Source of the DNA: an uncultured Armatimonadota bacterium
Lineage (GTDB): Bacteria; Armatimonadota; Fimbriimonadia; Fimbriimonadales; Fimbriimonadaceae
Reading direction: 5' to 3'
NCBI GenBank assembly: GCA_903899015.1
Contig: CAIUHP010000068.1
Span: 1-64,000, forward strand
Length of the DNA: 64,000 nt
Part shown: positions 10,827-58,095 of the stretch, piece after piece
Position numbering within the stretch: position 1 is the stretch's first letter
Layout: each line of letters opens with the position of its first letter
Position numbers and translations under genes: made by a program
The notes under the pieces: generated by a model
Told to the model about the DNA's origin: nothing
The model's input: only the letters and a program-made list of their open reading frames with translations
The model's database searches: none

Positions 10827-12527
10827 ATGTCCAAGGTAACCGGACTTGACCTCGATTCACGACTTCCGAAATCCATTCGAGCTATCCGCAAATATAATCT
10901 GCCCACGTTCTCTCAGGATCTCATCGCGGGCGTCACCGTTGGCCTAGTTGCACTTCCACTTGCAATGGCCTTTTCGATAAGCAGTGGAATGAGCCCTCAG
11001 GCAGGAATTTACACTGCCATCATCGCAGGCTTTTTGTCATCGCTTTTAGGGGGCTCGACGGCTCAAGTGAGCGGGCCGACCGGCGCATTTGTCGTCGTTG
11101 TGGCTGGCATCGTTGCGAAGTATGGTGTAGAAGGTCTGTTTGTCTGCACGATCATGGCCGGAGTGCTCCTTGTGGTGCTCGGGATTACCGGCTTAGGGAC
11201 CGCAGTAAAGTTTCTTCCTCGATCGGTCGTGGTCGGATTTACAAACGGAATCGCTGTCTTGATAGCAAGCACTCAGATTAAGGATTTTCTGGGCTTGAGT
11301 ATTGATAAAGTCCCAGGAGATTTTCTGGGCCGAATGGCTGTGATTTGGGCTCATATCCAAACCATTTCAGCTGCCCCGGCAATCGTAGCGTCAGTAGCTC
11401 TTGCGGGCCTCATCATCTTTAGAACATATATTCCTCGGATTCCTGGCGCGATTGTAATTCTAATTGGTGGAACAGCGTTGGCATTTGCCCTTCACCTGCC
11501 CGTCGAAACAATTCAAACCCGATTTCATGGAATTCCTCAGGGGATTCCAAAAATGCATCTTCCCCAAATCTCATTGGGAAGCGCAAAAGAGCTTCTTGCT
11601 CCCGCTATTACCGTCGCTATGTTAGGCGCAATTGAGTCGCTCATGTCAGCTGTGGTGTCAGATCGGATGACGAAGGACAAACACAATCCCAACACTGAGC
11701 TAGTCGGCCAAGGAATTGCAAACATCGTATCTCCTCTGTTTGGAGGACTTCCATCCACCGGAGCCATCGCCCGAACCGCTACTAACATTCGATCGGGAGC
11801 CAAGACTCCCGTTGCGGGAATGATTCACGCCATCGTCCTGCTGATCATCCTTTTGGTTGCTGCACCGCTAGCCAACCACATTCCCCTGTGTATTCTCGCT
11901 TCGATTCTGATGATGGTCGCTTACAATATGGGCGAGTGGAAGGAGATTCCTCAGATTCTCAAGCTTTCACCGGCGGACATTTTAGTTTGGGCCGTGACCT
12001 TTGGATTAACCGTATTTGCCGACCTGACGGTGGCTGTGCAATCGGGAATGATTCTAGCTGCCCTTCTCTACATCAGTAAAGTCACGCGAACGACGACAGT
12101 CGTTCAGGTGACAAATGAATACCTTGAGGACGGTAGAGACCACATGCTTCATTTTCGAGAAGTACCGGAAGGGGTCGCGATCTTTCGTATTCATGGTCCA
12201 TTTCTCTTTGGCTCAACTGACAAGATTTCAGAGATCCTCGATCATGAAAGCGAGCTTCCACCAGTTGTCGTTGTACGGTTGAGAAATATGACCGCCATCG
12301 ATGGCACAGGAATTCAAGCTTTAGAAGAGATGACTCACCAACTCGTTTCGGGTGGGCGCCACGTAGTGTTCTGCGGGATGAGAGAGCAACCGGCCCAGCT
12401 AATGAAGAAGATCGGTTTTGAAAAGCACGTTGGCGTCAGCAATATTTGCTCGAATGTGACGGAAGCTTTGGCTAGGGCTCAAGAGCTTTTGTCCGGGGCA
12501 TCTTCTCAGAAAGTTAACCTTGCGTAA
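10827..12527 (+). CDS. SulP/SLC26-family anion transporter with STAS domain
   Basis: This 566-aa inner-membrane protein has the SulP layout: a hydrophobic region with the family signature near its start (AGVTVGLVALPLAMAFSI), many membrane segments up to about residue 420, and the conserved GGLPSTGAIARTATN stretch. The last ~120 residues form a cytoplasmic STAS domain (VVVVRLRNMTAIDGTG). Members carry sulfate, bicarbonate or dicarboxylates; the substrate cannot be fixed here. No carbonic anhydrase or sulfate-assimilation gene is adjacent. Confidence 0.92.
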   Translation: MSKVTGLDLDSRLPKSIRAIRKYNLPTFSQDLIAGVTVGLVALPLAMAFSISSGMSPQAGIYTAIIAGFLSSLLGGSTAQVSGPTGAFVVVVAGIVAKYGVEGLFVCTIMAGVLLVVLGITGLGTAVKFLPRSVVVGFTNGIAVLIASTQIKDFLGLSIDKVPGDFLGRMAVIWAHIQTISAAPAIVASVALAGLIIFRTYIPRIPGAIVILIGGTALAFALHLPVETIQTRFHGIPQGIPKMHLPQISLGSAKELLAPAITVAMLGAIESLMSAVVSDRMTKDKHNPNTELVGQGIANIVSPLFGGLPSTGAIARTATNIRSGAKTPVAGMIHAIVLLIILLVAAPLANHIPLCILASILMMVAYNMGEWKEIPQILKLSPADILVWAVTFGLTVFADLTVAVQSGMILAALLYISKVTRTTTVVQVTNEYLEDGRDHMLHFREVPEGVAIFRIHGPFLFGSTDKISEILDHESELPPVVVVRLRNMTAIDGTGIQALEEMTHQLVSGGRHVVFCGMREQPAQLMKKIGFEKHVGVSNICSNVTEALARAQELLSGASSQKVNLA

Positions 12528-32682: not shown

Positions 32683-32699
32683 GCGCACCGCGCCTAGTT
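32677..32699. terminator. Bidirectional hairpin that contains both stop codons
   Basis: AACTAGGCGC and GCGCCTAGTT form a perfect 10-bp stem with a 3-base loop. The TAG of the beta-helix gene (32680-32682) and that of the convergent halogenase gene (32694-32696, minus strand) lie in opposite arms, symmetric about the loop. No T-tract follows. It probably ends or protects both transcripts. Confidence 0.7.
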
Positions 32700-34385
32700 C
32701 ACTTTGATATAGGGACGGTCTGGGTTGACCGTGCCAGTGATCCAGCCTTCTAAGTGCATGGTTTCCAGCGCTTCGATCGTGAGAAGCTTAGCGTCTTCAG
32801 CATCGATATGGTCTTGGTCAATCATCGCGTTGACACAGTCCTCCAGGATCGCGATGCTATCGGTGTGACGTCGTAAACCGTTGACCGCGTGTTTAAATGA
32901 GTCGATGAGGGGAAGAATCTTCGTGCCGCGCTTCATACATGGAATCGGAAGCACACGGCCGTTTAGGTATCGGACAAATTTATCTTCTCTCGCTCCTTCG
33001 AAATCGAGTTTCCAGGAGTTCGTCTTCATGATTTCCCATTCAGGTGGGGATACGCCTAGTTGGACGGCGACAAGTTTGAGCCCGGAAACTCGGTAGGTTA
33101 GAGCCGCCGCAATGCCTGGTTCATCCAGTGTGAACCCACCGGTGGCTAACCAGCGGAAAGCTGTTTCGGGATCTAGAGTCAATCCTGCTGTCTCCGCGAT
33201 CTCTTGGCAATACTCTTTGAGGTCTTTGAACTGACCGTTTGAGGAGTACCAAAAATCGGCAAACTGCATGTGGTGCTTGATTTGAGCGCGATGCCCTTCC
33301 TCGTATTCGTGTTTGAGCCATTCAGGATCGACCAAACCGCGATTGAGCTCAAGAATGGTAAAGGCGACCTTTCTTGCGCTGGTGTGCGCGAGAGTCATTC
33401 CGGCAGACAAAATGGGGTCGGCGAATCCACAACTGTCGCCAGATAAGAACCAATTTTCACCCACCAATCGGTCGGATAAGAAATTCCAGTCTTTCGTCGC
33501 AAAGACCCCTGGTTCTGGTGTGGCAGAAGCGATCAATTCTCTGATGAGCGGTTCGGTTGAAATAGCTTCGTGATAGAGTTCTTCGACCGTTTTCCCGCTA
33601 TTTTTATAGTAGTCCGCTGGTAAAACAACCCCGACCGACGTTCGTGAGGGCGTAATGGGAATGAACCAAAGCCAGCCCCAGTCCAAACTCATGATTTGGA
33701 TTCGGGTTCCTCCCGTTCCAAGCGTGATGGCCCATTTTGCGTCATTGAAATACTGATAGAAGGCAATATTTCGTAGTGCAGTCGGCGCGTCGATCGTAAT
33801 GTTTAGGGCCCGACGGAGCATGCCAACTTCGCCGGTGCAGTCGACATAATATTTGGCCTGAATCCGGTCGTCATCGCCAACATATTCGGTTACTTCAGGG
33901 TCTTCTGAGGTGATGTTGAGGCCTAGAACCTTGTCTCCTTTTACATCGATGGAAGACACTTTGGTTTGTTCAAAGACTCGGCAGCCTAATTCTTTTGCGT
34001 GATCTAAAAGGATCTTGTCGTAAATCGACCGATCGGTTTGAAAGGCCGTTCGTTTACGCTGATCGACAAATTTTGCGGGACGCGGTTCGTCTCGGAATTT
34101 CTCAGAATGGAGGAAGTCGGTGTCCCAAAGATCTTTCGTGGCCCCCCACTTAAAAGTTGCCCCGATCTTAATGGGGAATTCCGCTGCCTCGATTTTGTCC
34201 CAGACTCCCATTTCGTCGAGAATTGCCGAAATGGCCGGCGTGTGGCTCTCTCCAATGTGGTCGCGAGGGAATTTCTCTCTCTCAATAATCGTGACATCCA
34301 TCGTCGGGCTGTATTTCTTTAGTAGTGAGCCCAAAGTCGAACCAGCTGGTCCGCCACCGATAATCGCAACATCCGTTTTAAGCAT
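32694..34385 (-). CDS. Flavin-dependent halogenase family protein (paralogue A)
   Basis: 563 residues. FAD-binding GGGPAG at 10-15, GES-x-x-P at 45-50, conserved Lys73 in PIKIGATFKWG, the halogenase marker WxWxIP at 238-243 (WLWFIP), and FxxPxxSxG at 321-329 (FADPILSAG). Such enzymes use FADH2, oxygen and halide to make HOX, which a Lys directs to an electron-rich carbon (phenol, pyrrole, indole). The last ~170 residues form an extra domain ending in ALETMHLEGWI. Together these separate it from plain monooxygenases. It is last in the operon, 11 bases after paralogue B, to which it is very close. Substrate and activity unproven. Confidence 0.82.
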   Translation of the reverse strand: MLKTDVAIIGGGPAGSTLGSLLKKYSPTMDVTIIEREKFPRDHIGESHTPAISAILDEMGVWDKIEAAEFPIKIGATFKWGATKDLWDTDFLHSEKFRDEPRPAKFVDQRKRTAFQTDRSIYDKILLDHAKELGCRVFEQTKVSSIDVKGDKVLGLNITSEDPEVTEYVGDDDRIQAKYYVDCTGEVGMLRRALNITIDAPTALRNIAFYQYFNDAKWAITLGTGGTRIQIMSLDWGWLWFIPITPSRTSVGVVLPADYYKNSGKTVEELYHEAISTEPLIRELIASATPEPGVFATKDWNFLSDRLVGENWFLSGDSCGFADPILSAGMTLAHTSARKVAFTILELNRGLVDPEWLKHEYEEGHRAQIKHHMQFADFWYSSNGQFKDLKEYCQEIAETAGLTLDPETAFRWLATGGFTLDEPGIAAALTYRVSGLKLVAVQLGVSPPEWEIMKTNSWKLDFEGAREDKFVRYLNGRVLPIPCMKRGTKILPLIDSFKHAVNGLRRHTDSIAILEDCVNAMIDQDHIDAEDAKLLTIEALETMHLEGWITGTVNPDRPYIKVN

Positions 34386-34396
34386 TTTGAATCTTT

Positions 34397-36088
34397 CTAA
34401 GTGACTTTAATGAATGGGCGGCTGGGAACAACTTTGCATCGAATCCAGCCTTCGAGCATCAGCGATTCTAAAGCTTCTATGGCGAGAAGCTCCGCTTCCT
34501 TTACCTCGACCCCATCTTCGTGAATCATCCGGTTCACGCAATCCTCAAGAATGAGAATGCTATCCATGTTGTTCTTGAACGCATTCACGACGTGTTTAAA
34601 CACGTCGACCAGTGGCAAGACTTTGGAACCGCGTTTCAGGCATGGAATGGGAACGACCCGGCCATCCATGTAGCGAACAAACTTTCCTTCAGTCGCATCC
34701 GATAGATTGAGGCGCCAGAAATTGGTCTTGGTTATCTCCCACTCCGGGGGTGATCCTCCAAGTTGAACAGCGACCAGTTTCAAGCCGGACACTCGATAGG
34801 TTAGGGCTGCTGCCACACCGGGTTCGTCGATGGTAAAGCCTCCAGTAGCGAGCCATTGGAATGCGGTTGCAGGATCAAGCGTGAGCCCAGCCGTTTCCGC
34901 AATCTCAGCGCAGTAGTCTTTGAGATCCGTAAACTGACCGTTGGACGTGTACCAGAAATCTGCAAACTGCATGTGATGCTTGATCTGAGTGCGATGGCCG
35001 TCTTCGTACTCGGATTTAACCCATTCCGGATCGAGCTGCCCACGGAATAGCTCGAGCAAAGTGAAGGCGACTTTCCTCGCACTTGTGTGGGCCAATGTCA
35101 TTCCAGCGGAAAGAATTGGGTCGGCAAACCCACAACAATCTCCAGCCAGAAACCAATTTTGACCGACTAATCTTTTCGAGAGAAAATTCCAATCTTTGGT
35201 CGCGGTGATTTCTTCTTCCGGGGTCGCATTTGCCAGGAGTTTTGAAATGAGTGGTTCTTCAGCGATGGCATCGGCGTAAATTTGTTCGACCGTCTTGCCG
35301 CTCTCTTTGTAATAGGATGCGGGAAGTACGAGTCCCACCGAAGTACGCGTGGGTGTAATCGGGATGAACCACATCCATCCCCAATCCAGGCTCATGATTT
35401 GGATGCGGGTTCCACCATTCCCGAGAGTTACCGCCCAGTCTGCATCTTGCCAGTACTTGTAGATCGCGATGTTTCGAAGCGCAGTGGGGGCTTCAATCTC
35501 GATGTCCATGGCCCGTCGTAAAATGCCGACATCACCCGAGCAGTCCACATAGTAGCGGGCTTCGACTCGACAGTCAGCTCCAATTTGATCGAGGACGTCC
35601 GCGTCCGTTGATTGAAGTTTGAGCCCAAGAACAGCGTCTCCGTCTCTCTCAATGGATGCAACCTTAGTCTGTTCAAATACCTGGCATCCAAGTGACTCAG
35701 CATGGTCGAGTAACACTTTGTCATAAACGGAACGGTCAACTTGAAAAGCCGTCTTCAGGCGTTGGTCCTCGAATTTCTGGGGACGCGGAACGTTTCGGAA
35801 TTCCTGGTGATGGAGGAAGTCGGTATCCCAAAAATCCTTCTTTGCACCCCATTTAAAGGTAGCGCCAATCTTAATTGGGAAATTTGCCGCTTCTACCTTA
35901 TCCCAGACTCCCATTTCGTCGAGGATTGCGGAAATGGCAGGTAAGTGGCTTTCTCCTACGTGATCTCTAGGGAATTTTTCACGCTCGATGATCGTTACGT
36001 CGAGCGATGGATTGTATTTTTTGATAAAGGTACCGATGGTGGCTCCAGCTGGTCCGCCACCAATGATTGCTACGTCGGTTTTATGCAT
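34397..36088 (-). CDS. Flavin-dependent halogenase family protein (paralogue B)
   Basis: 563 residues from the ATG at 36088, chosen because AAGGA lies about 10 bases upstream and its first residues align with those of paralogue A. All halogenase marks are kept at matching positions: GGGPAG, GES-x-x-P, the Lys in PIKIGATFKWG, WMWFIP and FADPILSAG. It is much closer in sequence to paralogue A than to C, so A and B look like a recent duplication. The last ~170 residues repeat the extra domain ending ALESLMLEGWI. It starts 26 bases after the stop codon of the TPR-sulfotransferase gene. Confidence 0.82.
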   Translation of the reverse strand: MHKTDVAIIGGGPAGATIGTFIKKYNPSLDVTIIEREKFPRDHVGESHLPAISAILDEMGVWDKVEAANFPIKIGATFKWGAKKDFWDTDFLHHQEFRNVPRPQKFEDQRLKTAFQVDRSVYDKVLLDHAESLGCQVFEQTKVASIERDGDAVLGLKLQSTDADVLDQIGADCRVEARYYVDCSGDVGILRRAMDIEIEAPTALRNIAIYKYWQDADWAVTLGNGGTRIQIMSLDWGWMWFIPITPTRTSVGLVLPASYYKESGKTVEQIYADAIAEEPLISKLLANATPEEEITATKDWNFLSKRLVGQNWFLAGDCCGFADPILSAGMTLAHTSARKVAFTLLELFRGQLDPEWVKSEYEDGHRTQIKHHMQFADFWYTSNGQFTDLKDYCAEIAETAGLTLDPATAFQWLATGGFTIDEPGVAAALTYRVSGLKLVAVQLGGSPPEWEITKTNFWRLNLSDATEGKFVRYMDGRVVPIPCLKRGSKVLPLVDVFKHVVNAFKNNMDSILILEDCVNRMIHEDGVEVKEAELLAIEALESLMLEGWIRCKVVPSRPFIKVT

Positions 36089-36114
36089 CTTTCTTATCCT
36101 TTTGGGCAAAGCAA

Positions 36115-37968
36115 TCAGGCATCAGGAAGTAAATCCTTAAATTCGCCGAGATACGCTTCGAATTTGCGCCATCGTTGAATCGACGACTTATAGAAAGGTT
36201 GTCGCACCTGCCAAACACTCGGAGTGATTACGGCTCGTTTATTTTCGTGTGGTCGTAAACAGGCATCGTTCCACTCCAGTCCGCAGAACTCGACAAGCTT
36301 CCGAGTTTCCGGCTCGCTGTTGCTCACAAGATTTTCGTATTGAATCTCAAGCATCGACTCTGGTGGCAGTGCCTTTCGCCAGTGCTTCATGATTTTGAGA
36401 TACTCGCCATAGGCGCTCACGATATTTCGTCGGTTATGAGCGAATTCGGTAAGGGCGCGGTTTGGAGTCGCATAAATCGAAAAGCACGTGTCAACCGGAT
36501 CGCGCATCACGTGAATAATCTTCGCGTTCGGGAATGCGAGGTGGATGATGCCAAGCCCGGCGTAGTTGATCGGCATCTTATCGACAACGTGTGATTTGCT
36601 AGGAGCGATGGACTGAAGAAGCGCGACATATCGATTCGCTGCTTCATTCAACCCGTCGACGTTGAGCTCGCCCTTCATTTCATTGAGACCAGAACGCCAG
36701 TTGTCGCCCCAAAAAGTTTGCTCGCCGGCAGCCCCTACTTCTGGGTGGCTGGAAAGAACTTGCTCGATAAGCGTCGTTCCGGAACGCATCATTCCGACAA
36801 CGAAAATGGGCATCGAACTAGCAGAACCAGCACCTGCATTTCGCTTGACGAAGCTCGTTGAGAACTGGCGAATCGTTCGGTCAAATCGATCCGAATATGC
36901 TTCGTCGTCGAATACTCCATCCTTGAACTTCAATTCATATTCAATCCGGTTGGCTTCGTCATATGCCGCAATCGACCCTGCAAAATCGCTTAGGTCTTCA
37001 AGTGATTTCGCGATGCCGTACTGAAGAAAACTGGCTTGCTTCGGCGGGAGATTCGATTTTGAGGCAAGCTTTTGCATCTGCTCGACTAAACCTCGATCTT
37101 CTTCGCCCATTTTCTTGCTGTTGGCAATCGCGAAATAGGCATATCCTTGGTTCGGTTCAAGAGCAATCGATTGCTGGAAGCAACGAATGGCCTCATCGAT
37201 GCGACCGAGGGCCTGGATAGCGGTCCCCATCATCCCATAGACCTGGTGATCTTTGGATTGACGAGCCATCGCCTGTTTGAGAAGATCTTCCGCTTCCGCC
37301 GACTGACTATCTTCGAGGAGAAGTCTGGCTAAGAGGAGCTTGGCAACATCCGAAGACGGCTGAAGTTGAAGCGCACGACGCGCAACCTCCTGGGCCGCAG
37401 TCGGATTGTTTTGGCTCAGTAAGAACTGGGCAAGCTTGAGAAGGCTGTCAGCATTGTGTTGGGAACCGCTAAGCGCGCGCCGAATAACATCCGATGCTTC
37501 GTCTCTTCTGCCTTGCAAGTGCAAGCACTGACTCAAGCTATAAAGAATGGGGATGACTTGGGGGGCACGAAAAGTTGCTTGCCGTAACCGCTCTTCTGAT
37601 TCTGGAAGTAGCCGAACTTCCAGAAGGCAGATTCCTAGTTGAGCCAGTGCCTGAGCGTCTTGTGGGTTGAGTTCCACTGCACGTCGGGCAGAATGAATCG
37701 CTTCCGGAATTTTGCCAAGCTTCTTGTAAACGTGAGATTGCCAAAACGCGGCATGGAAAGAGTCAGGCTCAATCCCTTGCACTTCGTCCAAAAGCCGAAT
37801 CGCCTTAAGCGGGTCCCCCACCTTTGCTTCGATGACACCGGCAATCATCAATGCTTGCACGTTATAGGGCTCGATCGCCAAAACTTGGCTGCAAAGGCGA
37901 CTCGCTTCTCCAAATTGGTTGGAAGCATGAGCGGTACTCGCTGCACGGATCAGATTATCTATATCCAA
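36115..37968 (-). CDS. TPR-repeat sulfotransferase (tyrosylprotein-sulfotransferase-like)
   Basis: About 617 residues: N-terminal TPR repeats (to ~residue 290; e.g. AIHSARRAVELNPQDAQAL) and a C-terminal sulfotransferase domain. The PAPS loop is FVVGMMRSGTTLIEQVL, and the 3'-phosphate motif is HVMRDPVDTCFS. Such domains move sulfate from PAPS to hydroxyl groups of sugars, phenols or protein tyrosines; a target cannot be chosen. The TTG start at 37968 is preferred because GGAGG, the last Gly codons of paralogue C, lies 11 bases upstream. It sits inside the halogenase operon, 7 bases after C and 26 before B. Confidence 0.85.
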   Translation of the reverse strand: MDIDNLIRAASTAHASNQFGEASRLCSQVLAIEPYNVQALMIAGVIEAKVGDPLKAIRLLDEVQGIEPDSFHAAFWQSHVYKKLGKIPEAIHSARRAVELNPQDAQALAQLGICLLEVRLLPESEERLRQATFRAPQVIPILYSLSQCLHLQGRRDEASDVIRRALSGSQHNADSLLKLAQFLLSQNNPTAAQEVARRALQLQPSSDVAKLLLARLLLEDSQSAEAEDLLKQAMARQSKDHQVYGMMGTAIQALGRIDEAIRCFQQSIALEPNQGYAYFAIANSKKMGEEDRGLVEQMQKLASKSNLPPKQASFLQYGIAKSLEDLSDFAGSIAAYDEANRIEYELKFKDGVFDDEAYSDRFDRTIRQFSTSFVKRNAGAGSASSMPIFVVGMMRSGTTLIEQVLSSHPEVGAAGEQTFWGDNWRSGLNEMKGELNVDGLNEAANRYVALLQSIAPSKSHVVDKMPINYAGLGIIHLAFPNAKIIHVMRDPVDTCFSIYATPNRALTEFAHNRRNIVSAYGEYLKIMKHWRKALPPESMLEIQYENLVSNSEPETRKLVEFCGLEWNDACLRPHENKRAVITPSVWQVRQPFYKSSIQRWRKFEAYLGEFKDLLPDA

Positions 37969-37975
37969 TGAGTGT

Positions 37976-39709
37976 TTAGCCTCCGATAGCAGGAGCAAGC
38001 TTCACCTTGGGATCCAAAGTGTCTCTGTTCCAGTCGATATTTGGGGTGCGGGGAATATCACCTGGTCCTAGAAGAGGCTTAGTAGGATCATAGGTCCCTA
38101 AAATCCAACCATCTTTGAGCATGACTTCCAAAGCTTCGATCGCGCTAAGTGCGACGATGGGGCCAAGTTTGGCAGACACCATTCTCAACGCTCGGATGAT
38201 TCCATCGAGCGTTGTTTCTCGTTCCAGGATCTCAAGTGCGGTTCGGAAACCACCCGAAATCGGTAATTCTAGTTTGCCCTTTCGGAGAATGCGTCCCAAG
38301 TGGATTTTCCCGTTCTCGTAGACCGGAGTCTTGTCGGCAACCACGCCATCAATGTTGAGATCGAATACGTTGACCTTCGTGATGGCCCATTCCGACTCTT
38401 CGTTGAACAGCATTCCCTGAATGTTCTTGATCTGCTCGATAGTGTGTCCGGCCAAGCCTGCACCTGCGGTCTCAAGAGAGACAAAACCTCCGGTTCCAAG
38501 CCATTGCCAGGCGGATTTGGCATCCATGTTGAAGCCAGCTTCTTTGGCAATCTCACCGGTGTATTCGACAAGGTCGGTGAAGTGCCCGTTGCCGGAGTAC
38601 CAAAAGTTTGCAAAGCGAATGTGCTGAAAGATGCGATTGGATTGTCGACTCTCAAAAGCCTTCTTGATCCATTCCTTGTCGTGCTTGCCTTCTTCGAGCT
38701 CGATGATGGTGTAGGCGCATTCCTTTGCCCCAACCATTGTCATCGTGATGCCAGCGGACAAAATGGGATCCGCAAAGCCAGCCGACTCTCCCACAAGAAA
38801 CCAGTTATCGCCGACCATTTGCTGAGCCGTAAATGACCAATCCTTTGTCGCCTTGACATGGCCATCCCGTTTCGCGTTGGCCACAAGGGAAGAGATACGC
38901 GGTTCCGATTGTACCGCTTCCAGATAGAGATCTTCTGGCCGCTTTCCAGACTTCTTGTAGTACTCGGCAGGACAAACCAATCCGATAGACGTTCGAGTTT
39001 CGGAAATGGGAATAAACCAAATCCAGCCATAGCCAAGACTCATGATCTGGATGCGCGTGCCACCGACGCCGATACTAACCGCCCATTCGGCATTCTCCCA
39101 GTGGTCCCACATCGCAATATTTTTGAGGGATGCAGGTTCGTCGACCGGAATGCCAAGCGCTTTACGTATGATGCCTGCATTGCCAGAAGCGTCAATGTAG
39201 TGCTTTGCGGTAATTGTTTTACCGTCCGTCAGTTGGAGACCCGAAACCGAGTTGCCTTCGGTGAGGACCTTTTCGACCCCTCGATCTTCAAACACGGTGC
39301 AACCCAGGCTTCGTGAGTGATCGAGAAGGATTTTGTCGAACCGAGCTCGATCTACTTGGAATGTGCTGCGCATGCGCCACGCTTCGAACTTTCCAGGTCG
39401 CTGATCTTCCAGGTTGATTTCTGCGGTCTCAAGTAAGTTGAAATCCCAAAGTTCGTCGGTTGATCCCCACTTGTAGGTAGCTCCAATTTTGATGGGGAAA
39501 TTTGCTGCTTCAACCTTTTCCCATGCTCCAATTTCATTGAGCACCCGTCCGGTTGTCGGCAACAAGCTTTCGCCGATGTGTTCACGAGGGAAATTTTCCT
39601 TTTCAAGAATGGTGACGCTGAGATGAGGAGCGTATTTCTTGATCATAGAGCCGACAGTTGAGCCCGCAGGCCCTCCGCCGACGACGGCGATATCATAAGA
39701 TTCAGACAT
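37976..39709 (-). CDS. Flavin-dependent halogenase family protein (paralogue C)
   Basis: 577 residues, more divergent than A and B. GGGPAG at 11-16, the typical GESLLP, Lys74 in PIKIGATYKWG, WIWFIP and FADPILSAG are all present. The C-terminal region again ends in a helical ALEVMLKDGWI unit, plus a ~30-residue Pro/Asp-rich tail absent from A and B. It is the first gene of the operon; a hairpin 24 bases upstream separates it from the lipoprotein gene. Halogenation of an aromatic compound or peptide is inferred. The final Gly-Gly codons double as the ribosome binding site of the next gene. Confidence 0.82.
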   Translation of the reverse strand: MSESYDIAVVGGGPAGSTVGSMIKKYAPHLSVTILEKENFPREHIGESLLPTTGRVLNEIGAWEKVEAANFPIKIGATYKWGSTDELWDFNLLETAEINLEDQRPGKFEAWRMRSTFQVDRARFDKILLDHSRSLGCTVFEDRGVEKVLTEGNSVSGLQLTDGKTITAKHYIDASGNAGIIRKALGIPVDEPASLKNIAMWDHWENAEWAVSIGVGGTRIQIMSLGYGWIWFIPISETRTSIGLVCPAEYYKKSGKRPEDLYLEAVQSEPRISSLVANAKRDGHVKATKDWSFTAQQMVGDNWFLVGESAGFADPILSAGITMTMVGAKECAYTIIELEEGKHDKEWIKKAFESRQSNRIFQHIRFANFWYSGNGHFTDLVEYTGEIAKEAGFNMDAKSAWQWLGTGGFVSLETAGAGLAGHTIEQIKNIQGMLFNEESEWAITKVNVFDLNIDGVVADKTPVYENGKIHLGRILRKGKLELPISGGFRTALEILERETTLDGIIRALRMVSAKLGPIVALSAIEALEVMLKDGWILGTYDPTKPLLGPGDIPRTPNIDWNRDTLDPKVKLAPAIGG

Positions 39710-39764: not shown

Positions 39765-40001
39765 TTACGGAGTGCCCGCTGCTGGGGCTGCTCCTGTGCC
39801 ACCTGCTCCAGGAGCAGTTGCCATCTTGTTCTTTTCGTTTTCACGAGCGCCGGTCGGATGCTTCTTGGCCATACCCTCTAGGCTGGGAGGACCATCGAGC
39901 AACTTGCGAACCTTTGCTTCGTCTGTTGTGGGACCGTTGCTGCAGCCAACTAAGACTGCGATTGCGCCCAAACCGAGAACGAGAGCGTTGAGTTTCTTCA
40001 T
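39765..40001 (-). CDS. Small lipoprotein of unknown function
   Basis: 78 residues starting [10 protein letters not shown] with lipobox VLVGC, so Cys21 is lipidated. The mature part is short and disordered, with KVRKLLDGPPSLEGM and an Ala/Gly/Pro-rich end. Its ATG overlaps the stop of the prepilin-like gene (ATGA), which implies coupled translation. Small lipoproteins directly after a prepilin-like gene are, to my knowledge, common in Armatimonadota; the role is unknown. A longer upstream frame exists but the lipoprotein signal fixes the start. Confidence 0.7.
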   Translation of the reverse strand: MKKLNALVLGLGAIAVLVGCSNGPTTDEAKVRKLLDGPPSLEGMAKKHPTGARENEKNKMATAPGAGGTGAAPAAGTP

Positions 40002-40936
40002 CAACCCTTCGGCCAGAATGCCTTGATGGCCTGCTGAGCACCACCGTTGACGGGGATGGTTTGACCCATCAGCTGTCTCCAAGGTGTCGCCTTAACGTGA
40101 CCGTCAACTCCAGCCCAAACGGTTAGACCAGTAGGCATACCCGTTGGTGTTGGACCGCCGTGCCACTGCCATACACCCGTTGCCAACGGATCCTGATCTC
40201 GTTGTCGAGCAACGGGAGCCGTGATAACTAGGTTACAGCCATAGGTGTTGAATCCGCATGAACCCCAGTAAAGGTCAAATGTGTCCGCATTGTCTTGCTG
40301 CCACATATAGTCCCAAGTACCGGACTGGCTGATCATAACGTTATCGGCTGGGTTAGCAACTGCGGTGGTTGAGAGAGACGGGGTACCGCCTGCCTTATAT
40401 CCGTATGCTGACCAGATGATTCCGTTGGAAGAGTTCGTCACACCGCCAATGCCGTCGTAAAGATAAGTCTTTCCGCCCGTCATTGCAGCAGCTTGGCTGG
40501 ATCCACCGAAGGTGTAGTTGCTGAAGCTGCCATCGGTAGCAGCTTGCTGAGGTCCCATGCCCCAAAGGCCATAGACTGCGAGTGCGGTACCGCCATTTTC
40601 GTCGTTACCGTTTGTATCCGTTGGGTTTGGACCCGTTGGATCAAGCAGAACGCCCCATGACTTCATGTATGGCTGCTGAAGGTAGCTGAATGGCATTACG
40701 TGCCAGTTGCTGTCGTATTCAACCGTCGGCGAGAAGTTATCGTCGGCGTCGTTTGAGTACATGAGCTGGCCAAGTGCCATCTGCTTTGCGTTGCTGATTG
40801 CAACTGAACCCTTAGCGGCTCGCTTTGCTTGGGCAAAGACAGGGAATAGAATTGCTGCGAGAATCGCGATGATCGCGATTACTACGAGCAGTTCAATGAG
40901 GGTAAAGCCCCTTCGCTTTGTTTGATTCATTGACAT
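40001..40936 (-). CDS. Prepilin-type leader protein (DUF1559/H-X9-DG type)
   Basis: 311 residues. The type IV prepilin leader [19 protein letters not shown] gives cleavage before Phe by a prepilin peptidase and an N-terminal helix for membrane anchoring. The rest is a globular exported domain rich in Asn, Gly and aromatic residues, with a [13 protein letters not shown] segment near the end, the H-X9-DG style known from large pseudopilin families of Planctomycetes and Armatimonadota. It starts 5 bases after the end of the regulator gene, so both may be one unit, followed by the lipoprotein. Confidence 0.85.
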
Positions 40937-40941
40937 ATCTC

Positions 40942-42096
40942 CTAATATTGAGGAATTGAGCGATGCAAGGAAGAATCTCGAACGTTCGGGGCAGCGGTTG
41001 AACCGCGGTCAAGAAGTGGGGCATCTAATAGTGCATGCCGGTAAGCCTTGGGAACTCCCGTGCGTATTCGATGAAACACCATCTCGGCAGCCAACCTACC
41101 GATGCGTTCGAAATCCTGAAGTGAGGTCGTGAGGTACCCGCCGCCGGGCAACCAACGTAAGAGTCCGTCAAAACCGATGACAGACATCTGATGAGGAATG
41201 GATATTTTGCGATCCCGCAAGGCATCGCAAATCTGGAGGGCAATATGGTCGTTTACGGCAAAGATCGCCGTCGGAGGATCTGCCAGTCCGAGGCAAGTAT
41301 CGAGCGCCGAGTCGACCCCTTCTGGACCATCAACGAGGTCGTGAATGATGTAATCCGGATTGAAAGGAATCCCTGCTTCCTTTAGCGCGCGGACATATCC
41401 TGCCTCGCGTTCTCGAACACTCGATACGGGTTCGATGTTGTTGATGAAAGCTATTTTTCGGTGACCAAGTTCAATGAGGTGTTGAACGGATCTTTGAGCG
41501 GAAGCTTCGTTGTGGGTTCCAACGAAGTCAGCATCGAACTCTACTGGGGGAAGGCGGTCAACGAATACGATCGGAACCCGTTCCGTTCGCAGAGCCCTGA
41601 GGGCTTCGAGGTTTCGCTCACCACCCAAATACCAAATGATGATTCCGGCTACCTGAGGATCGTTTGCAACCGATTTGAGGAACTTTGCCTCGGATTCGAA
41701 GATGGAGTCCCAATCCCCATCGACCGCATTAGCAACAACCAGATTGACATCTTGCCCAAGGTCGGCACTTTGGATACCTTTGAGGATCGAAGCAGCAGCG
41801 TAGTCTCCCGTGTGCGGCCACAACCATATCCCGATGTTTGGTTTGCGGAGCTTCGATAACGAGTAAGTCTTCGGTGCGGATGCGACTGTTGGCCGGCATC
41901 TCGGTTTGACTTCAATGAGCCCCTTCGAAGCTAATTCTTTGATGGCTGCCCGAATCACTCCTCTGCTCGCACCTAGCTCAACTGAAAGCTCACGCTCGCT
42001 CGGCAGAACATGACCATATGGCCAAGTTCCGTCGTCTATACGGGACTCAATCTGCCCTGTAATAGCGGCAATAAGAGGGGATTCCATGCTAAGCAA
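40942..42096 (-). CDS. GntR-HTH/LacI-type transcriptional regulator
   Basis: 384 residues: an N-terminal winged helix-turn-helix of GntR type ([32 protein letters not shown], residues ~33-66) joined to a periplasmic-binding-like sensor of the LacI type ([12 protein letters not shown] to [10 protein letters not shown]). The arrangement is that of AraR, which binds a sugar and leaves DNA. The ligand here is unknown. It lies upstream of the prepilin, lipoprotein and halogenase genes in the same direction. Inverted repeats in the intergenic region may be its operators. The start may be ATG 42096 or three codons later. Confidence 0.88.
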
Positions 42097-51419: not shown

Positions 51420-53042
51420 ATGAAGTGGGTGGCGCCGACGGAACGGGATTTGAACAACCAGACGCTGGAGAAGCGGCTTTGGGAGGCGGCGGACCAGTTT
51501 CGGGCGAATAGTGGACTTACTGCCGCTCAATACTCTCAGCCGATTCTGGGACTTATCTTTCTCCGGTTTGCGGAGTCGCGGTTTGAACAGCGACGAACGC
51601 AGTTAGTCGCCGCTGGAGCATCCAGCCGCCAAGGATCGCGAGTGGATGACAAGACTGCTTATCATGCGGAAGGTGTGATCTTCCTGGTCGAATCCGCCCG
51701 GTATGCCCACTTGCTCAGCTTGCCAGAGGGAGCCGACATTGGTGGGGCGATCAACACCGCGATGCGTGACATTGAGCGGGACAACATCGCTCTCGCGGGT
51801 GTTCTGCCCAAGACCTACAACATTTTTAGCGGTCAGTTACTCAAAGATCTGCTCAAGAAAGTGTCCGAGATTCCAGTGAGTTTGGAATTCGATGCATTCG
51901 GTCGGATTTATGAATACTTCCTCGGTGAATTTGCCCGTACCGAAGGGAGCAAAGGGGGCGAGTTCTATACGCCTAGCCCGATTGTTCGCTTACTGGTAGA
52001 AGTGCTCGAACCGTACCACGGCCGAATTTTGGACCCAGCCTGCGGAAGCGGGGGCATGTTCGTTCAAAGCGCCCGATTCGTTTCCGAACACAAGAGTGAT
52101 CCCAGCGCCGAATTGAGTATTTTCGGAGTCGAGAAGACGGATGAAACCGGCAAGTTGGCCCGAATGAACCTGGCGATCCACGGGCTCGAAGGGGACATCA
52201 AGCATGGCGGTGAGATCAACAGCTATTACGACGATCCTCATACTGCGGTCGGACGCTTTGACTTCGTCCTCGCCAACCCGCCGTTCAACGTGAACGCGGT
52301 GGATAAAGAGCGATTGGCCGCGAATACTGGATCAGGAAAGCGGTACCCGCTTGGCCTTCCTCGGCCTGACAATGCGAATTATCTCTGGATTCAGCTTTTC
52401 TATTCGTCACTCAACGAAAAAGGCCGCGCCGGATTCGTTATGGCGAATTCCGCTTCGGACGCAAGGTCGTCTGAGCAAGACATCCGCCAGCAACTAATCG
52501 AAGACAGTGCTGTCGATGTCGTGGTCGCCGTCGGCCCCAACATGTTCTACACCGTCACCCTCCCTTGCACCCTTTGGTTTTTGGATAAGGGCAAGAAGGG
52601 AACCAACCGAGAAGACAAGGTTCTCTTCCTAGACGCCCGCCACGTCTACCGCCAAATCGACCGAGCCCACCGAGACTGGACCTCAAGCCAAATCGGTTTC
52701 CTCGCCAACGTCGTGAGGCTCTACCGAGGCGAGCAACCCGACTTCACCCTTGGAGGAGACGAGGCAAAAGAGAAACTGGCCGAAGTCTTCACCTCCGGAT
52801 TCGAATACCAAGACGTCCTCGGCCTCTGCAAGTCCGCGAGGAGAGCAGAGATCGCCGCTCAAGGTTGGTCTTTGAATCCTGGGCGGTATGTGGGAGTAGC
52901 TCCAGGGGAGGATGTTAGTGATGATGACTTTCGAGAAAAGTTATTGGCTCTGAATGAGGAACTATCAACGCTAAATCTGAAGGCTAGAGAGCTAGAAGCC
53001 GCTATTTCCCAGAATGTGGCCGAGTTAATGGTGGAAGCTTAG
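51420..53042 (+). CDS. hsdM: Type I restriction-modification methyltransferase subunit
   Basis: 540 residues. N-terminal helical HsdM domain ([23 protein letters not shown]), then an adenine-N6 methyltransferase with SAM motif [11 protein letters not shown] and catalytic NPPF. It modifies host sites and, with HsdS, forms the methylase core. Its TAG stop is immediately followed by the hsdS GTG, so translation is coupled. Confidence 0.95.
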
Positions 53043-54188
53043 GTGGAAGCCGGAATTACAACTCGCCTTGTTGAACTCGGAGATGTAATCGATGTTTTCG
53101 ACAATCAAAGAGTTCCGTTGAGTGGAAGCCAGAGACGATTGCGACAAGGAAACTTCCGGTATTACGGGGCCCAGGGAGTCATTGATTCAATTGATGACTT
53201 CATCTTTGACGGACAGTACGTTTTAGTGGCAGAGGACGGAGAGAATCTGAACAGCCGCAAATTACCATTGGCACTCATCGCTCAGGGCAAGTTTTGGGTT
53301 AACAATCATGCACACGTCATCAAGGGAAGACCGAAAGTCTTAGATGACCACTACTTACTCTACTGCCTGAACCAAATGGATATTCGACCATTCGTTACAG
53401 GAGCCGCTCAACCCAAACTATCCCAAGGAAATCTTAGACGCATCGAAATTGAGCTTCCTCCGCTCGAAGAGCAACGCCGCATCGCAGGAATCCTGTCGGT
53501 TTACGACGACCTGATCGAAAACTGCCAGCGCCGAATCAAAATCCTAGAAGAAATGGCGCGCAGCCTCTACCGCGAATGGTTCGTCCACTTCCGCTACCCC
53601 GGCCACGAATCAGTCCCCCTAATCAACTCCCCCGTTGGCCCAATTCCTAAAGGGTGGGATGTTCTCTTGTTAGGAGAAGCGTGCGAGCTTGTCATGGGGC
53701 AATCGCCTAAATCTGAGCACTATAACAGTGACGGGATTGGCTATCCATTTCACCAAGGCGTGACAGACTTTGGAACCCGCTATCCAACGGATCGACTATT
53801 TTGCTCCGTTGTCGGGAGAATGTCAAAACCAGGAGATATCTTGTTTAGCGTGAGAGCGCCAGTTGGGCGCCTAAACATTGCGAAAAATGCAATTGTCCTT
53901 GGTCGAGGCTTGTCGGCAATTAGGGCTAAGGATGGACTCCAAGAGCTACTCTGGGAGAATTTGTCGAATCTCTTCACTCAAGTCGATATGATTGGAAACG
54001 GTTCCATCTTCAACTCAGTCACGAAGGCTGACGTCTACAACGTTAAGCTCGTTTATCCCGATCCAACAATTGGCGAACATGCAAACGGCCTCCTGAAACC
54101 AATGCATAAAGAAATCGGTGCTCTATCTGAGATGATTTCCAACCTTTCGGTGACTCGCGAGCTACTTCTCTCCAAATTATTCAAATAA
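53043..54188 (+). CDS. hsdS: Type I restriction-modification specificity subunit
   Basis: 381 residues with two target-recognition domains (from ~residue 4 and ~195), separated by conserved helices (LPPLEEQRRIAGILSVYDDLIENCQRRI). The second half repeats the pattern LLLGEACELVMGQSPKSEHYN to NVKLVYP. Each domain reads one half of a bipartite site. GTG start, no gap to hsdM. Confidence 0.93.
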   Translation: MEAGITTRLVELGDVIDVFDNQRVPLSGSQRRLRQGNFRYYGAQGVIDSIDDFIFDGQYVLVAEDGENLNSRKLPLALIAQGKFWVNNHAHVIKGRPKVLDDHYLLYCLNQMDIRPFVTGAAQPKLSQGNLRRIEIELPPLEEQRRIAGILSVYDDLIENCQRRIKILEEMARSLYREWFVHFRYPGHESVPLINSPVGPIPKGWDVLLLGEACELVMGQSPKSEHYNSDGIGYPFHQGVTDFGTRYPTDRLFCSVVGRMSKPGDILFSVRAPVGRLNIAKNAIVLGRGLSAIRAKDGLQELLWENLSNLFTQVDMIGNGSIFNSVTKADVYNVKLVYPDPTIGEHANGLLKPMHKEIGALSEMISNLSVTRELLLSKLFK

Positions 54189-54253
54189 CTGGCTTGCAGC
54201 GGCATAGACTGTCTGCAGACGAGGCGACGCCCAAAAACGCAAATTGATTTAAG

Positions 54254-56359
54254 ATGAAAGCAGAAGATGTCCAGCTGACCAAACTCCTATCTGGTCCGAA
54301 GCAATTCGTGATTCCGGTCTTCCAGAGAGATTACAGTTGGGGGACAAGGCATTGCCTTCAACTCTGGAATGACGTGATTCGAGTCGGCATGAACGAGAAG
54401 GCTAAGGCTCATTTTGTTGGCTCGGTCGTATATATCGCGGCTGAGGATACCAGTGCGACGATTACCAAATGGCTCCTGATCGACGGGCAGCAACGGTTAA
54501 CGACCGTCACGATACTTCTGGCTGCTCTGCGGGCTAAGCTTGTCAAAATGGCGGAGGAAGGGGACCCTGTATGTCCGGAAATGGACCTGCCTGAGCCGGT
54601 TGAGATCGACGATTACTATCTGCGAAATCAACATGCAAAAGGGGATCGTAAGCATAAATTGATGCTGCGGCGTGCCGACCAGGCGACGCTTGAGGCATAT
54701 ATCTCGGGGACCGACTTCCCCGATCACCAATCTGATCGTATCAGGGAAAACTATGTGTTCTTCCGAGACCAGCTGGACGAAGCCGACTTAGAAGTGGTTT
54801 ATCAGGGTATCCGCAAGCTTGTAGTCGTAGACGTTGCGCTCAAGCGTGGGGAAGACGATCCGCAGATGATCTTTGAGAGCCTCAACTCGACGGGCCTCGA
54901 TCTGACACAAGCGGACCTGATTCGTAATTTCGTGCTGATGCGCCAAACCGAGGAGCGTCAGACGGAGTTATACCAAGCCTACTGGCATCCGATTGAAAAG
55001 TCTTTCGGTAGCAGCTACCGCACCCACTTCGACCGATTCATTCAGGACTATCTCAACCTCGAGCTTCGCCTCACTAAGCCAATCGTGTCAGACGAGGTTT
55101 ACACCCGATTCAAGGAGTTCTACGGGGCTCACACTCATGAGTCAGTCGACGATTTCTTGTCAGAGCTCAAGCGCTTTGCAATCTACTATGCGAAATACAA
55201 CCTTGGGATAGAGAAAAATTCGAGCCTGCACTTGGCATTCGAACGGCTGCGAAAAGTGGCAGACATTGCCAGCCCAGTCATGCTTGTTCTGTACGATGCC
55301 TATGACCGATTGAAGTCACTTACCGAGTCTGAGTTTGTAGAGGCGGCGGGACTTCTCGAAAGTTACGTATTGCGCCGTTCAGTTTGCGATCTTCAAACTC
55401 GAAGCCTGGGCGTTATCTTCCTGAGCTTGGCACTCAGAATCAAAAGCGACCAGCCGCTGGAGACTCTCAAAGTCGCGCTTTATCGCCAAGGCGACTCGCG
55501 TCAGTTCCCTTCAGATAGCGAATTCATGGAGAAGCTAGTGACCCGCGAGTTGTACAAGCTTCGCAATTGCGCCTACATCCTTGATCGGCTGGAAAACGAC
55601 AGCAAAGAGAAAATCGACACGACTACGTTTACGGTAGAGCACGTTATGCCTCAAACGAAGAACCTCAATCAAAAATGGGTTGAGATGCTTGGTCAGAACT
55701 GGGCTGAAATCCAAAGGACCTGGCTTCACCGCCTAGGCAACCTGACTTTGACTGGCTATAACTCCTCGTACAGCGACCGTGCGTTTGAGGACAAGAAAAG
55801 CATAAAGGGCGGCTTCAACGAGAGCCCGCTCCGCTTGAACAGTTACATCAAGCAACAATCCGGATGGCTGCCCCAGCAGATGGAAGAGCGAGGGATTTAT
55901 TGGGCTAAGCGGGCGCTAAGCGTTTGGCCCGCCCTCAATGTCGATCCGGTTGCGGTCAAACAAGCCGAGCTTGAAGACCACAAAGCATGGTCGGTCAAGC
56001 ACCCGATAGATGACATTCCGATGGATGCAAATAGCAGGGAACTGTTCAACCAACTTCGCCCCCATCTTCTGGCTTTAGGTGAAGACATTCACGAACTTGG
56101 TCAATCGCGCAGTGTGGTCTACCGGGTTTACGATTTCGTCGTCGAAGTCATCCCGAGAAAGGGTTACCTCTATCTCAATTTGAACTTAGAAATGTCCGAC
56201 CTCGACCCCGTACCCGAGCACGTTGATGACTTAACCATCTTTGCGTTTGTTCGCGACGCTAAGGAACGAGGATCTGTTGGATTCTCGATCTGGAGCGCTG
56301 ATCGACTGCCTGTCGCAATCGAACTCATCAAACGCGCATACGAGCGAGTTACGGAGTAA
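54254..56359 (+). CDS. DUF262/DUF1524 nuclease (GmrSD-like) with DUF5655 tail
   Basis: 701 residues. N-terminal DUF262 domain with IPVFQRDYSW and DGQQRLTT, the ParB-like NTPase site. The DUF1524 HNH nuclease reads VEHVMPQ and later RLGNLTLTGYNSSYSD. The last ~110 residues look like DUF5655. GmrSD enzymes use NTP to cut modified foreign DNA; here the gene is inserted between hsdS and the toxin-antitoxin-like pair. It probably adds a second, modification-dependent barrier to the type I system. Confidence 0.85.
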   Translation: MKAEDVQLTKLLSGPKQFVIPVFQRDYSWGTRHCLQLWNDVIRVGMNEKAKAHFVGSVVYIAAEDTSATITKWLLIDGQQRLTTVTILLAALRAKLVKMAEEGDPVCPEMDLPEPVEIDDYYLRNQHAKGDRKHKLMLRRADQATLEAYISGTDFPDHQSDRIRENYVFFRDQLDEADLEVVYQGIRKLVVVDVALKRGEDDPQMIFESLNSTGLDLTQADLIRNFVLMRQTEERQTELYQAYWHPIEKSFGSSYRTHFDRFIQDYLNLELRLTKPIVSDEVYTRFKEFYGAHTHESVDDFLSELKRFAIYYAKYNLGIEKNSSLHLAFERLRKVADIASPVMLVLYDAYDRLKSLTESEFVEAAGLLESYVLRRSVCDLQTRSLGVIFLSLALRIKSDQPLETLKVALYRQGDSRQFPSDSEFMEKLVTRELYKLRNCAYILDRLENDSKEKIDTTTFTVEHVMPQTKNLNQKWVEMLGQNWAEIQRTWLHRLGNLTLTGYNSSYSDRAFEDKKSIKGGFNESPLRLNSYIKQQSGWLPQQMEERGIYWAKRALSVWPALNVDPVAVKQAELEDHKAWSVKHPIDDIPMDANSRELFNQLRPHLLALGEDIHELGQSRSVVYRVYDFVVEVIPRKGYLYLNLNLEMSDLDPVPEHVDDLTIFAFVRDAKERGSVGFSIWSADRLPVAIELIKRAYERVTE

Positions 56360-56427
56360 GCCGAAACCCGTCCTGTTCAGTTGAACGATCTTGCCCCTTG
56401 GGGAGTCGTAGTATTCTGTGATTGGCG

Positions 56428-57582
56428 ATGTCGCTTCAAGTAACAATCAAACCTGAGGTTTTGCGGTGGGCGAGGGAACGAGTTTCTCTCGCACCTGCTG
56501 AGTTGGCTAGGGGGATGGGTTGGAAGAGCACGACGCTCATTGACCGGTGGGAAGCGACCGGTGAACTGAGCCTGAGCCACCTGGAGCGACTCGCGGTCCG
56601 CACTCATACGCCGGTCGGATATTTCTTCCTACCTGAACCTCCGGTTGATCGCCTTCCGGTCGCAGATTTCCGAACCACCGACGCCGCACCTCAGCTTCGG
56701 CCCAGTCCGGACCTGTTGGAAACGCTTTACACCTGCCAGCAACGCCAAGAGTGGTTTCGAGATTATCTTCTCAGTCAGGACGCCGATCAGCTCCCTTTCG
56801 TGGCTCGATCGCGAGTGACGGACTCGGTATCAGAAGTAGCGAAAGAAATTCGCGGTGTGATTCAATTCGACATTCCCGCTCGGGCACAAATGGCCACGTG
56901 GGAAGCAGCTTTGGCGAGCATGATGGAGGGAACGGAGCAGGCGGGCATTTTGGTGATGCGCAATGGCGTGGTGGGGAATAACTCGCACCGCAAGCTTAAA
57001 GTTGATGAATTCCGAGGGTTTGCTCTTTCAGACCCGTATGCACCTTTGGTCTTCATCAACGCATCGGATGCCAAATCAGCGCAAATGTTTACTCTCGCGC
57101 ATGAACTTGCCCATATCTGGCTTGGGGCAAGCGGGGTTTCGAATTGGCGACTCAATGCCGATCGAGCTGTTGAACGATTCTGCAACGCAGTCGCGGCAGA
57201 GGTCCTGGTTCCGCGCGAGATGTTTGAAGAGGACTGGCAAGTCGAAGCCGAGCCGTTGGCAGAAGCGAGCCGTCTCGCTCGAGGATATAAGACTAGTAGC
57301 TTAGTGATACTGATTCAGGCGCGAGAATTTGGACGTATCACCCAAGAGCAATTCGACATGAGCTACAACGCCGAACTGGCCGCGATCCGGGAAAACAAGG
57401 GGGCTAGTGGTGGGGATTTCTATCGGACTCAAGGAAGTCGGTTAGGTAAGCGATTTGCGCGGGCCGTCGTTGCGAGCGCGATGGAGGGGCACCTACCTTA
57501 CACCGAAGCCTTTGAGTTGTTGGGTGTGAGGAAATCGGAGACTTTTAACAAGTTAGCAAGGACGTTAGAGGTCACAAGCTGA
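56428..57582 (+). CDS. XRE-type ImmA/IrrE metallopeptidase, antitoxin-like
   Basis: 384 residues from ATG 56428 (a TTG 6 bases upstream is less likely). An N-terminal helix-turn-helix (PAELARGMGWKSTTLIDRWE) is followed by a ImmA/IrrE zinc peptidase with the site HELAHIWLG. Such proteins pair with DUF4411 PIN toxins as regulators or antitoxins. Its stop lies 1 base before the toxin start. Confidence 0.88.
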   Translation: MSLQVTIKPEVLRWARERVSLAPAELARGMGWKSTTLIDRWEATGELSLSHLERLAVRTHTPVGYFFLPEPPVDRLPVADFRTTDAAPQLRPSPDLLETLYTCQQRQEWFRDYLLSQDADQLPFVARSRVTDSVSEVAKEIRGVIQFDIPARAQMATWEAALASMMEGTEQAGILVMRNGVVGNNSHRKLKVDEFRGFALSDPYAPLVFINASDAKSAQMFTLAHELAHIWLGASGVSNWRLNADRAVERFCNAVAAEVLVPREMFEEDWQVEAEPLAEASRLARGYKTSSLVILIQAREFGRITQEQFDMSYNAELAAIRENKGASGGDFYRTQGSRLGKRFARAVVASAMEGHLPYTEAFELLGVRKSETFNKLARTLEVTS

Positions 57583-57583
57583 C

Positions 57584-58072
57584 ATGGCGTACTTGCTCGA
57601 TACGAACACTTTTATCGAGTCAAAGAACCAATTCTATCGATTCGCTGTTTGTCCGGGTTTCTGGGATTGGATCACTTTAGCTGCGGCAGAAGGCCGTGTG
57701 TTGAGCCTCGATAAGGTTCGCGATGAGTTGTTTGTAGTCGAGGACGATCTATCAAATTGGGCTAGTGGGTTACCTCCGACTTTCTTTAAGTCAGTTGACG
57801 CCAAAACCGTCCAGGCTGCGGGTGCAATAAGCGAGTGGACGCTTGGCAAAGCCTATCGACCAGCAGCAGTCCAAACGTTTTTTGACAGTGCAGACTATTG
57901 GTTAATTGCTTTTGCTCTCGCCCACAACCATGTCCTTGTAACCAGAGAACTTCCCAGTCCTGAGTCCAAGAGAGTGATTAAAATCCCCGATGTTTGCGTA
58001 GGGCTCGGGGTGAAATTCAAGTCGCCTTTTGACATGTTGACTGAAGAAGGGGCTGAGTTCGTTCTACAATAG
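57584..58072 (+). CDS. DUF4411 PIN-domain toxin-like protein
   Basis: 162 residues. The PIN start LLDTNTFIESKN, the Asp/Glu of LDKVRDEL, the DSADYWLIAFAL segment and VTRELPSPESK fit DUF4411 RNases of the PIN class. It would cleave RNA unless held by the preceding ImmA/IrrE partner. It stands between that gene and hsdR. Confidence 0.85.
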   Translation: MAYLLDTNTFIESKNQFYRFAVCPGFWDWITLAAAEGRVLSLDKVRDELFVVEDDLSNWASGLPPTFFKSVDAKTVQAAGAISEWTLGKAYRPAAVQTFFDSADYWLIAFALAHNHVLVTRELPSPESKRVIKIPDVCVGLGVKFKSPFDMLTEEGAEFVLQ

Positions 58073-58095
58073 CTTTACGTCTGCGGTAATGCTGT

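Follow-up and report, generated by a model that had tools for sequence, protein, structure and literature searches.

A conserved Armatimonadota cassette joins halogenase-like flavoenzymes and a TPR-sulfotransferase to a pilin-like exported protein

Flavin-dependent halogenases are known as makers of small molecules or short peptides: CmlS, PltA, ChlB4, Mpy16, SgcC3 and others use small or carrier-bound substrates, and to our knowledge no described system halogenates and sulfates a surface protein in the way considered here. Tryptophan in ribosomal peptides is halogenated by the flavin-dependent enzymes MibH, SrpI and ChlH of RiPP (ribosomally synthesized and post-translationally modified peptide) pathways (PMC12615548), and the related flavoprotein QhpG is a proven peptidyl-Trp dihydroxylase (PMC7876137). 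Here we analyze a stretch of 64,000 nucleotides (the window) from an uncultured Armatimonadota bacterium of the Fimbriimonadaceae (GCA_903899015.1, contig CAIUHP010000068.1, positions 1 to 64,000), in which a minus-strand cassette combines three halogenase-like flavoenzymes, Hal-1, Hal-2 and Hal-3, and a tetratricopeptide repeat (TPR)-sulfotransferase with a prepilin-like exported protein (Table 1). Catalytic residues, fold and gene content, together with conserved linkage and co-divergence, are what we observed; from them we infer, with confidence that is evenly balanced, that the cassette tailors its own pilin-like protein, whose aromatic residues would be halogenated and whose tyrosines would be sulfated. 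Each component part belongs to a known kind; as far as our searches went, their combination and the partner proteins are new.

The original prediction, which labeled Hal-1, Hal-2 and Hal-3 as C, B and A, respectively, described a four-gene operon in the order Hal-1, TPR-sulfotransferase, Hal-2, Hal-3, and the list of open reading frames (ORFs) and their strands bears this out. Its intergenic gaps of 7, 26 and 11 bases are exact, given an ATG start at 36088 for Hal-2 and a TTG start at 37968 for the sulfotransferase, the latter agreeing with the N-terminus of the orthologues. The four genes are not supported as a stand-alone unit: the cassette begins upstream, at a regulator and the pilin-like gene, followed by a small lipoprotein gene that starts at an ATG overlapping the stop codon of the pilin gene, all of which had been omitted, and the halogenase and sulfotransferase families are also found apart, each beside pilins. 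Past its leader, the pilin-like protein contains 12 Trp and 13 Tyr; a structure predicted from its sequence alone was unusable (pLDDT 37).

The original prediction named a lack of gene-order conservation in related genomes as a refutation; we found the order kept. Regulator, pilin and Hal-1 occur together in seven genomes, six of which also have the sulfotransferase. Three (G005, G008 and G018) retain regulator, pilin, Hal-1, sulfotransferase and Hal-2 in that order, and G013 has Hal-1, sulfotransferase, Hal-2 and Hal-3 in order, with the regulator and pilin several kb downstream. The sulfotransferase has been relocated to the opposite strand in G004; in G059, the pilin and three halogenases remain and the sulfotransferase is missing within the stretch read. 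The regulator occupies the same cassette position at five loci (L047, L048, L050, L051 and L052) and is displaced at L049. Because Hal-1 is only 64–82% identical between these genomes, the conserved order is more than mere recency. By sequence, the cassette pilins are one orthologous set, 62–90% identical mutually and at most about 50% identical to any other pilin sampled, and Hal-1 adjoins the same pilin orthologue in 6/7 cassettes. In five other cassettes, the translated stretch that separates pilin from Hal-1 encodes the lipoprotein in the same frame, with a PPSLEGMAKK-type motif that is degenerate in G018. Because this conserved operon travels with one exported pilin-like protein, its enzymes probably decorate this surface protein instead of producing a small molecule.

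Beyond the cassette, the halogenase family shows an unusual expansion in the genus, where one genome can have as many as 14 matches, and the TPR-sulfotransferase family is likewise expanded; 12 genomes from outside Armatimonadota hold only one or two halogenases of this family each. Both families are linked to pilin-like genes, by P values that ignore relatedness and come from several comparisons. The cassette's own genome (G000) has nine halogenase loci, two of them at contig ends; five of the nine have a prepilin-like gene no farther than 500 bp away (P = 4e-5, with chance at 0.05 per gene). Nine of 11 sulfotransferase loci lie within 2 kb of one (P = 2e-8). Within 2.5 kb of a pilin in the closed relative G008 are 6/7 halogenase loci (P = 5e-5) and 3/3 sulfotransferase loci (P = 0.002). 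The two linkages are independent, many loci holding one family without the other. Distances among halogenases correlate with those among their neighboring pilins (Mantel r = 0.75, n = 25), also once the Hal-1 cassettes are removed (r = 0.63, n = 20, P = 2e-4); among distant pairs the correlation is weak (r = 0.33). Tyr content is higher in sulfotransferase-linked pilins, at 6.39%, than in unlinked (5.06%, P = 0.006) or halogenase-only pilins (5.00%, P = 0.003).

Several further observations concern these islands. Prepilin-motif matches number 85 in G000 and 105 in G008. At least 11 TPR-sulfotransferase loci in the cassette's own genome stand mostly beside pilin-like genes, also where a halogenase is absent. 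A sodium/hydrogen exchanger-type antiporter adjoins the halogenase in eight Armatimonadota loci (L117, L127, L131, L135, L136, L138, L139 and L146; PF00999 in L139), and a cation:proton antiporter adjoins the C-1027 halogenase gene on a Streptomyces plasmid (L239:1984-3351).

On sequence and modeled structure, the three flavoenzymes likely have halogenase chemistry, an assignment that every test applied to sequence and structure (motifs, invariant Lys and Glu, fold and tree) supports. As predicted, all three carry GxGxxG, WxWxIP and FxxPxxSxG; in some relatives, Ala replaces the Ser of the last motif. Each matches Pfam Trp_halogenase (PF04820; E = 5e-29 to 8e-34). Among solved structures, the nearest relatives are PltA, FasV (8zop), ChlB4, Mpy16, CmlS and CndH. 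Glu47, Lys74 and WxWxIP (Hal-1 numbering) are invariant across 54 family members, with Lys74 aligning to the catalytic Lys of PltA and CmlS. This Lys is essential in flavin-dependent halogenases, WxWxIP has been proposed to prevent hydroxylation by them (PMC10696468) and PltM K87A is inactive (PMC6424973). The AlphaFold2 model of Hal-1 (mean predicted local distance difference test score (pLDDT) 82.6) best matches FasV (Z 39.4), CndH (39.2), RadH (37.2) and Bmp2 (36.9), and CmlS superposes at Z 34.5 over 455 residues, C-terminal domain included. Maximum-likelihood analysis places the family in a single clade (100/99) apart from every characterized enzyme included; no proven non-halogenating enzyme falls within it among those compared, a set without QhpG. 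The exact sister of the clade is uncertain because of long branches. Inside the clade there are two paralogue lineages, both old and distinct from each other: Hal-1, and the pair of Hal-2 and Hal-3.

An unlikely alternative is that the flavoenzymes are protein hydroxylases of the QhpG/LodB kind, which would act on pilin Trp or Tyr before the sulfotransferase sulfates. NCBIfam QhpG and LodB models match at 89–134 bits, QhpG, with its demonstrated activity on peptidyl Trp, superposes on the Hal-1 model (Z 31.5, 406 residues), and the genome lacks a PF01613 reductase; for QhpG, too, no reductant is known. Those scores are far under the curated cut-offs (QhpG 99–121 bits against 240; LodB 89–92 bits against 400), the CmlS model (NF033113, 167–177 bits, itself below its cut-off of 900 bits) and halogenase structures fit much better, and the Lys that halogenation requires is invariant together with WxWxIP (PMC10696468, PMC6424973). 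We also considered the C-terminal domain (about 440–560) as a RiPP-recognition element, which was unsupported, with no convincing Pfam family match; because CmlS aligns through it, this domain is not peculiar to the clade. Another halogenase paralogue of the cassette's genome (G000:C105:24254-25953) is interrupted by a TGA stop and spread over different frames, either as a pseudogene or through an assembly error.

The fourth enzyme matches Sulfotransfer_3 (E = 6e-41) and TPRs in Pfam. The closest solved relatives of its sulfotransferase domain are the protein-tyrosine sulfotransferases TPST1/2 (43 bits over 191 residues), and its RSGTT loop, the predicted binding loop for 3'-phosphoadenosine-5'-phosphosulfate (PAPS), and the predicted catalytic Glu, that of GEQT in the GE(Q/E)T segment, align with TPST2. 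An adenosine-5'-phosphosulfate (APS) kinase is encoded in the genome (E = 7e-57), so PAPS can be made, and a prepilin peptidase is encoded as well. A sulfate permease (SulP with STAS domain) lies at 10827-12527 of the window and is possibly relevant to sulfate supply. The genome has three PF03358 reductases, the class to which SsuE belongs. SsuE supplied reduced flavin in PltM assays (PMC6424973).

The same halogenase family is also found in Phycisphaerae, Cyanobacteria and Proteobacteria, where it is sparse (1/369 gammaproteobacterial and 7/386 cyanobacterial genomes sampled); because it occurs in one of 369, no further gammaproteobacterial neighborhoods were available. An exported P-domain (PF01483) protein directly adjoins the halogenase in Halieaceae, Alteromonadaceae, Okeania, a Pelagimonas metagenome-assembled genome and another gammaproteobacterium, with architectures that vary among PEP-CTERM, IPTL-CTERM and autotransporter ends. 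H-(T/S)-W-x-G-D and G-(T/V)-W-(T/S) segments recur in all six partners, perhaps as no more than the consensus of the P-domain; the L229 protein, too, has the H-T-W-x-G-D-L stretch. In 10/10 cyanobacterial loci outside Okeania (Microcoleus, Trichormus and other filamentous cyanobacteria), the gene immediately ahead of the halogenase, in the same orientation, encodes a peptide of 60–100 aa made up of three to seven decapeptide repeats of the HTWTE(N/T)L(D/E) type (HTWTENLDI(A/S)). The protein encoded upstream of the peptide is conserved, is about 247 aa long and keeps Glu and His residues (EDDHHW, ETGH), and neither it nor the peptide matches a Pfam or NCBIfam family. This three-gene set looks like an undescribed RiPP-like precursor system, and our literature search found no paper mentioning the HTWTENL repeat and nothing relevant on a halogenase with PEP-CTERM or with Armatimonadetes/Planctomycetes. 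Because Trp repeat peptides or exported Trp-bearing proteins adjoin it in unrelated phyla, the family most simply acts on a gene-encoded protein. Only tentatively would we extend this to a halogenase family dedicated to such proteins, modifying pilin-like proteins in Armatimonadota (together with a TPST-like sulfotransferase), P-domain protein Trp elsewhere and HTWTENLDI(A/S)-repeat peptides with their small partner protein in cyanobacteria.

Tailoring of the pilin-like protein has to be weighed against a number of observations. No member of the halogenase-like clade has a known activity, and the genome has no PF01613 flavin reductase. Joint inheritance of neighboring genes could explain both the linkage and the co-divergence. 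A pilin neighbor is absent for some halogenase copies (L040, L117, L139 and L152), and many phycisphaeral and planctomycete copies are surrounded by unrelated genes. The comparison of Tyr contents was one among several tests and takes no account of relatedness. Halogenase-linked pilins show no enrichment in Trp or Tyr, and no motif specific to them survives correction for 1000 tests. They also lack the HTW motif of the cyanobacterial repeats. Outside Armatimonadota, signal peptides are not significantly enriched among halogenase neighbors (14/60 versus 37/252, P = 0.12) with a home-made predictor that misses obvious cases.

Confinement of the Tyr enrichment to sulfotransferase-linked pilins, with neither a Trp nor a Tyr signal in halogenase-linked ones, would fit a division of targets, with the sulfotransferase alone acting on the pilin and the halogenase-like proteins acting on a different protein, exported or regulatory, that these islands encode in trans; we think this improbable, given that halogenases co-diverge with the adjacent pilin and that Hal-1 keeps its one pilin orthologue in nearly every cassette. 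A small phenolic or indolic metabolite could instead be what the operon halogenates and sulfates, with the pilin-like gene adjacent only through a common sugar-responsive regulator. The small-molecule enzymes matched here as relatives (CmlS, PltA, ChlB4, Mpy16, SgcC3 and others), the glycosidase-like genes around several loci and the copies without a pilin neighbor are in its favor. We nevertheless hold it to be unlikely, with two enzyme families independently linked to pilins, halogenases and pilins paired paralogue by paralogue, protein-tyrosine sulfotransferases as the closest solved relatives of the sulfotransferase, and repeat-peptide and P-domain partners in other phyla. Nor does the window offer a biosynthetic core gene: in agreement with the original prediction, a scan of nearly all window proteins of at least 150 aa gave no nonribosomal peptide synthetase, polyketide synthase, carrier-protein or flavin-reductase domain. 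Among the ORFs listed around the operon there was likewise no short leader-bearing peptide as a candidate RiPP precursor; repeat peptides turned up in the cyanobacterial relatives only. The earlier proposal that a peptide or protein may be halogenated and sulfated gains indirect support and is narrowed to the pilin-like protein by linkage, co-divergence and TPST kinship.

In the favored model of pilin tailoring, a sugar-responsive (LacI/GntR-type) cassette would produce a prepilin-like exported protein together with dedicated modifying enzymes. Two kinds of halogenase dependent on reduced flavin adenine dinucleotide (FADH2), Hal-1 and the Hal-2/Hal-3 pair, would halogenate Trp or Tyr side chains of the cytoplasmic precursor, with FADH2 supplied by a reductase whose gene lies elsewhere. 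The TPST-like sulfotransferase would sulfate the precursor's tyrosines with PAPS while its TPR domain grips the protein, and the modified protein would then be cut by prepilin peptidase and displayed. If true, this would be a dedicated bacterial pathway for protein halogenation and sulfation, drawn from a widespread clade paired with exported proteins; it would account for the expansion of the family in Fimbriimonas-like genomes and provide a source of enzymes for site-specific protein halogenation. The cyanobacterial repeat peptide is a small, readily testable substrate candidate. In another part of the window, at 51420-61254, genes for a GmrSD-type endonuclease and an IrrE-type peptidase interrupt a set of type I restriction-modification genes (HsdM, HsdS and HsdR).

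Table 1. The cassette in the window and the partner genes beside related halogenases in other phyla.
Feature	Position	Strand	Basis or remarks
GntR-type helix-turn-helix and LacI-type sugar-binding regulator, first gene of the cassette	40942-42096	-	PF00392, PF13377
Prepilin-like exported protein, 311 aa, candidate substrate	40001-40936	-	PF07963, TIGR02532
Small lipoprotein, 78 aa	39765-40001	-	ORF; GC lipobox and PPSLEGMAKK motif
Hal-1, FADH2-dependent halogenase-like flavoenzyme, 577 aa	37976-39709	-	PF04820; Glu47, Lys74, WIWFIP, FADPILSAG
TPR-sulfotransferase	36115-37968	-	Sulfotransfer_3 and TPRs; TTG start
Hal-2, halogenase-like flavoenzyme, 563 aa	34397-36088	-	PF04820
Hal-3, halogenase-like flavoenzyme, 563 aa, sister lineage of Hal-2	32694-34385	-	PF04820
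P-domain partner proteins	L162:11899-13392, L164:9216-9884, L165:11809-12483, L168:9226-9822, L228:8292-9770, L229:3204-4163		Directly beside halogenase
Cyanobacterial repeat peptides, part 1	L193:8792-9076, L195:9536-9805, L216:9429-9719, L227:9421-9738, L232:6885-7184		
Cyanobacterial repeat peptides, part 2	L275:1124-1342, L276:992-1261, L277:1031-1264, L278:3371-3589 (-), L280:3410-3715 (-)		

Compared with the CmlS/CndH/PltA group of halogenases (FasV, SgcC3, ChlB4, Mpy16 and Bmp2), the Hal proteins share the fold, GxGxxG, WxWxIP, FxxPxxSxG and the catalytic Lys and Glu, and in CmlS the alignment runs through the C-terminal domain too; they differ in forming a separate clade (100/99) at about 30% identity that lacks a biosynthetic cluster, is linked to exported proteins and multiplies to as many as 14 matches in a genome. 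MibH, SrpI and ChlH belong to RiPP pathways, whereas the window is without a RiPP precursor or leader and its candidate substrate is a large exported protein. The maturases QhpG, LodB and GoxB have a related flavoprotein fold, and QhpG modifies Trp within a protein (PMC7876137), but theirs is a hydroxylation for quinone cofactors, and the Hal proteins miss the curated cut-offs of these models. With TPST1/2, and the bacterial RaxST, the sulfotransferase domain shares the RSGTT loop and the Glu of GE(Q/E)T found in TPST; unlike TPST1/2, the cassette enzyme is bacterial, has N-terminal TPRs and shows weak identity. Finally, the prepilin-like or DUF1559-type proteins of Planctomycetota and Armatimonadota have, as here, an N-terminal methylation motif and numerous paralogues; the DUF1559 family itself was unmatched in the Pfam scan, and the pilin set described here is distinguished by being tied to a modification cassette.

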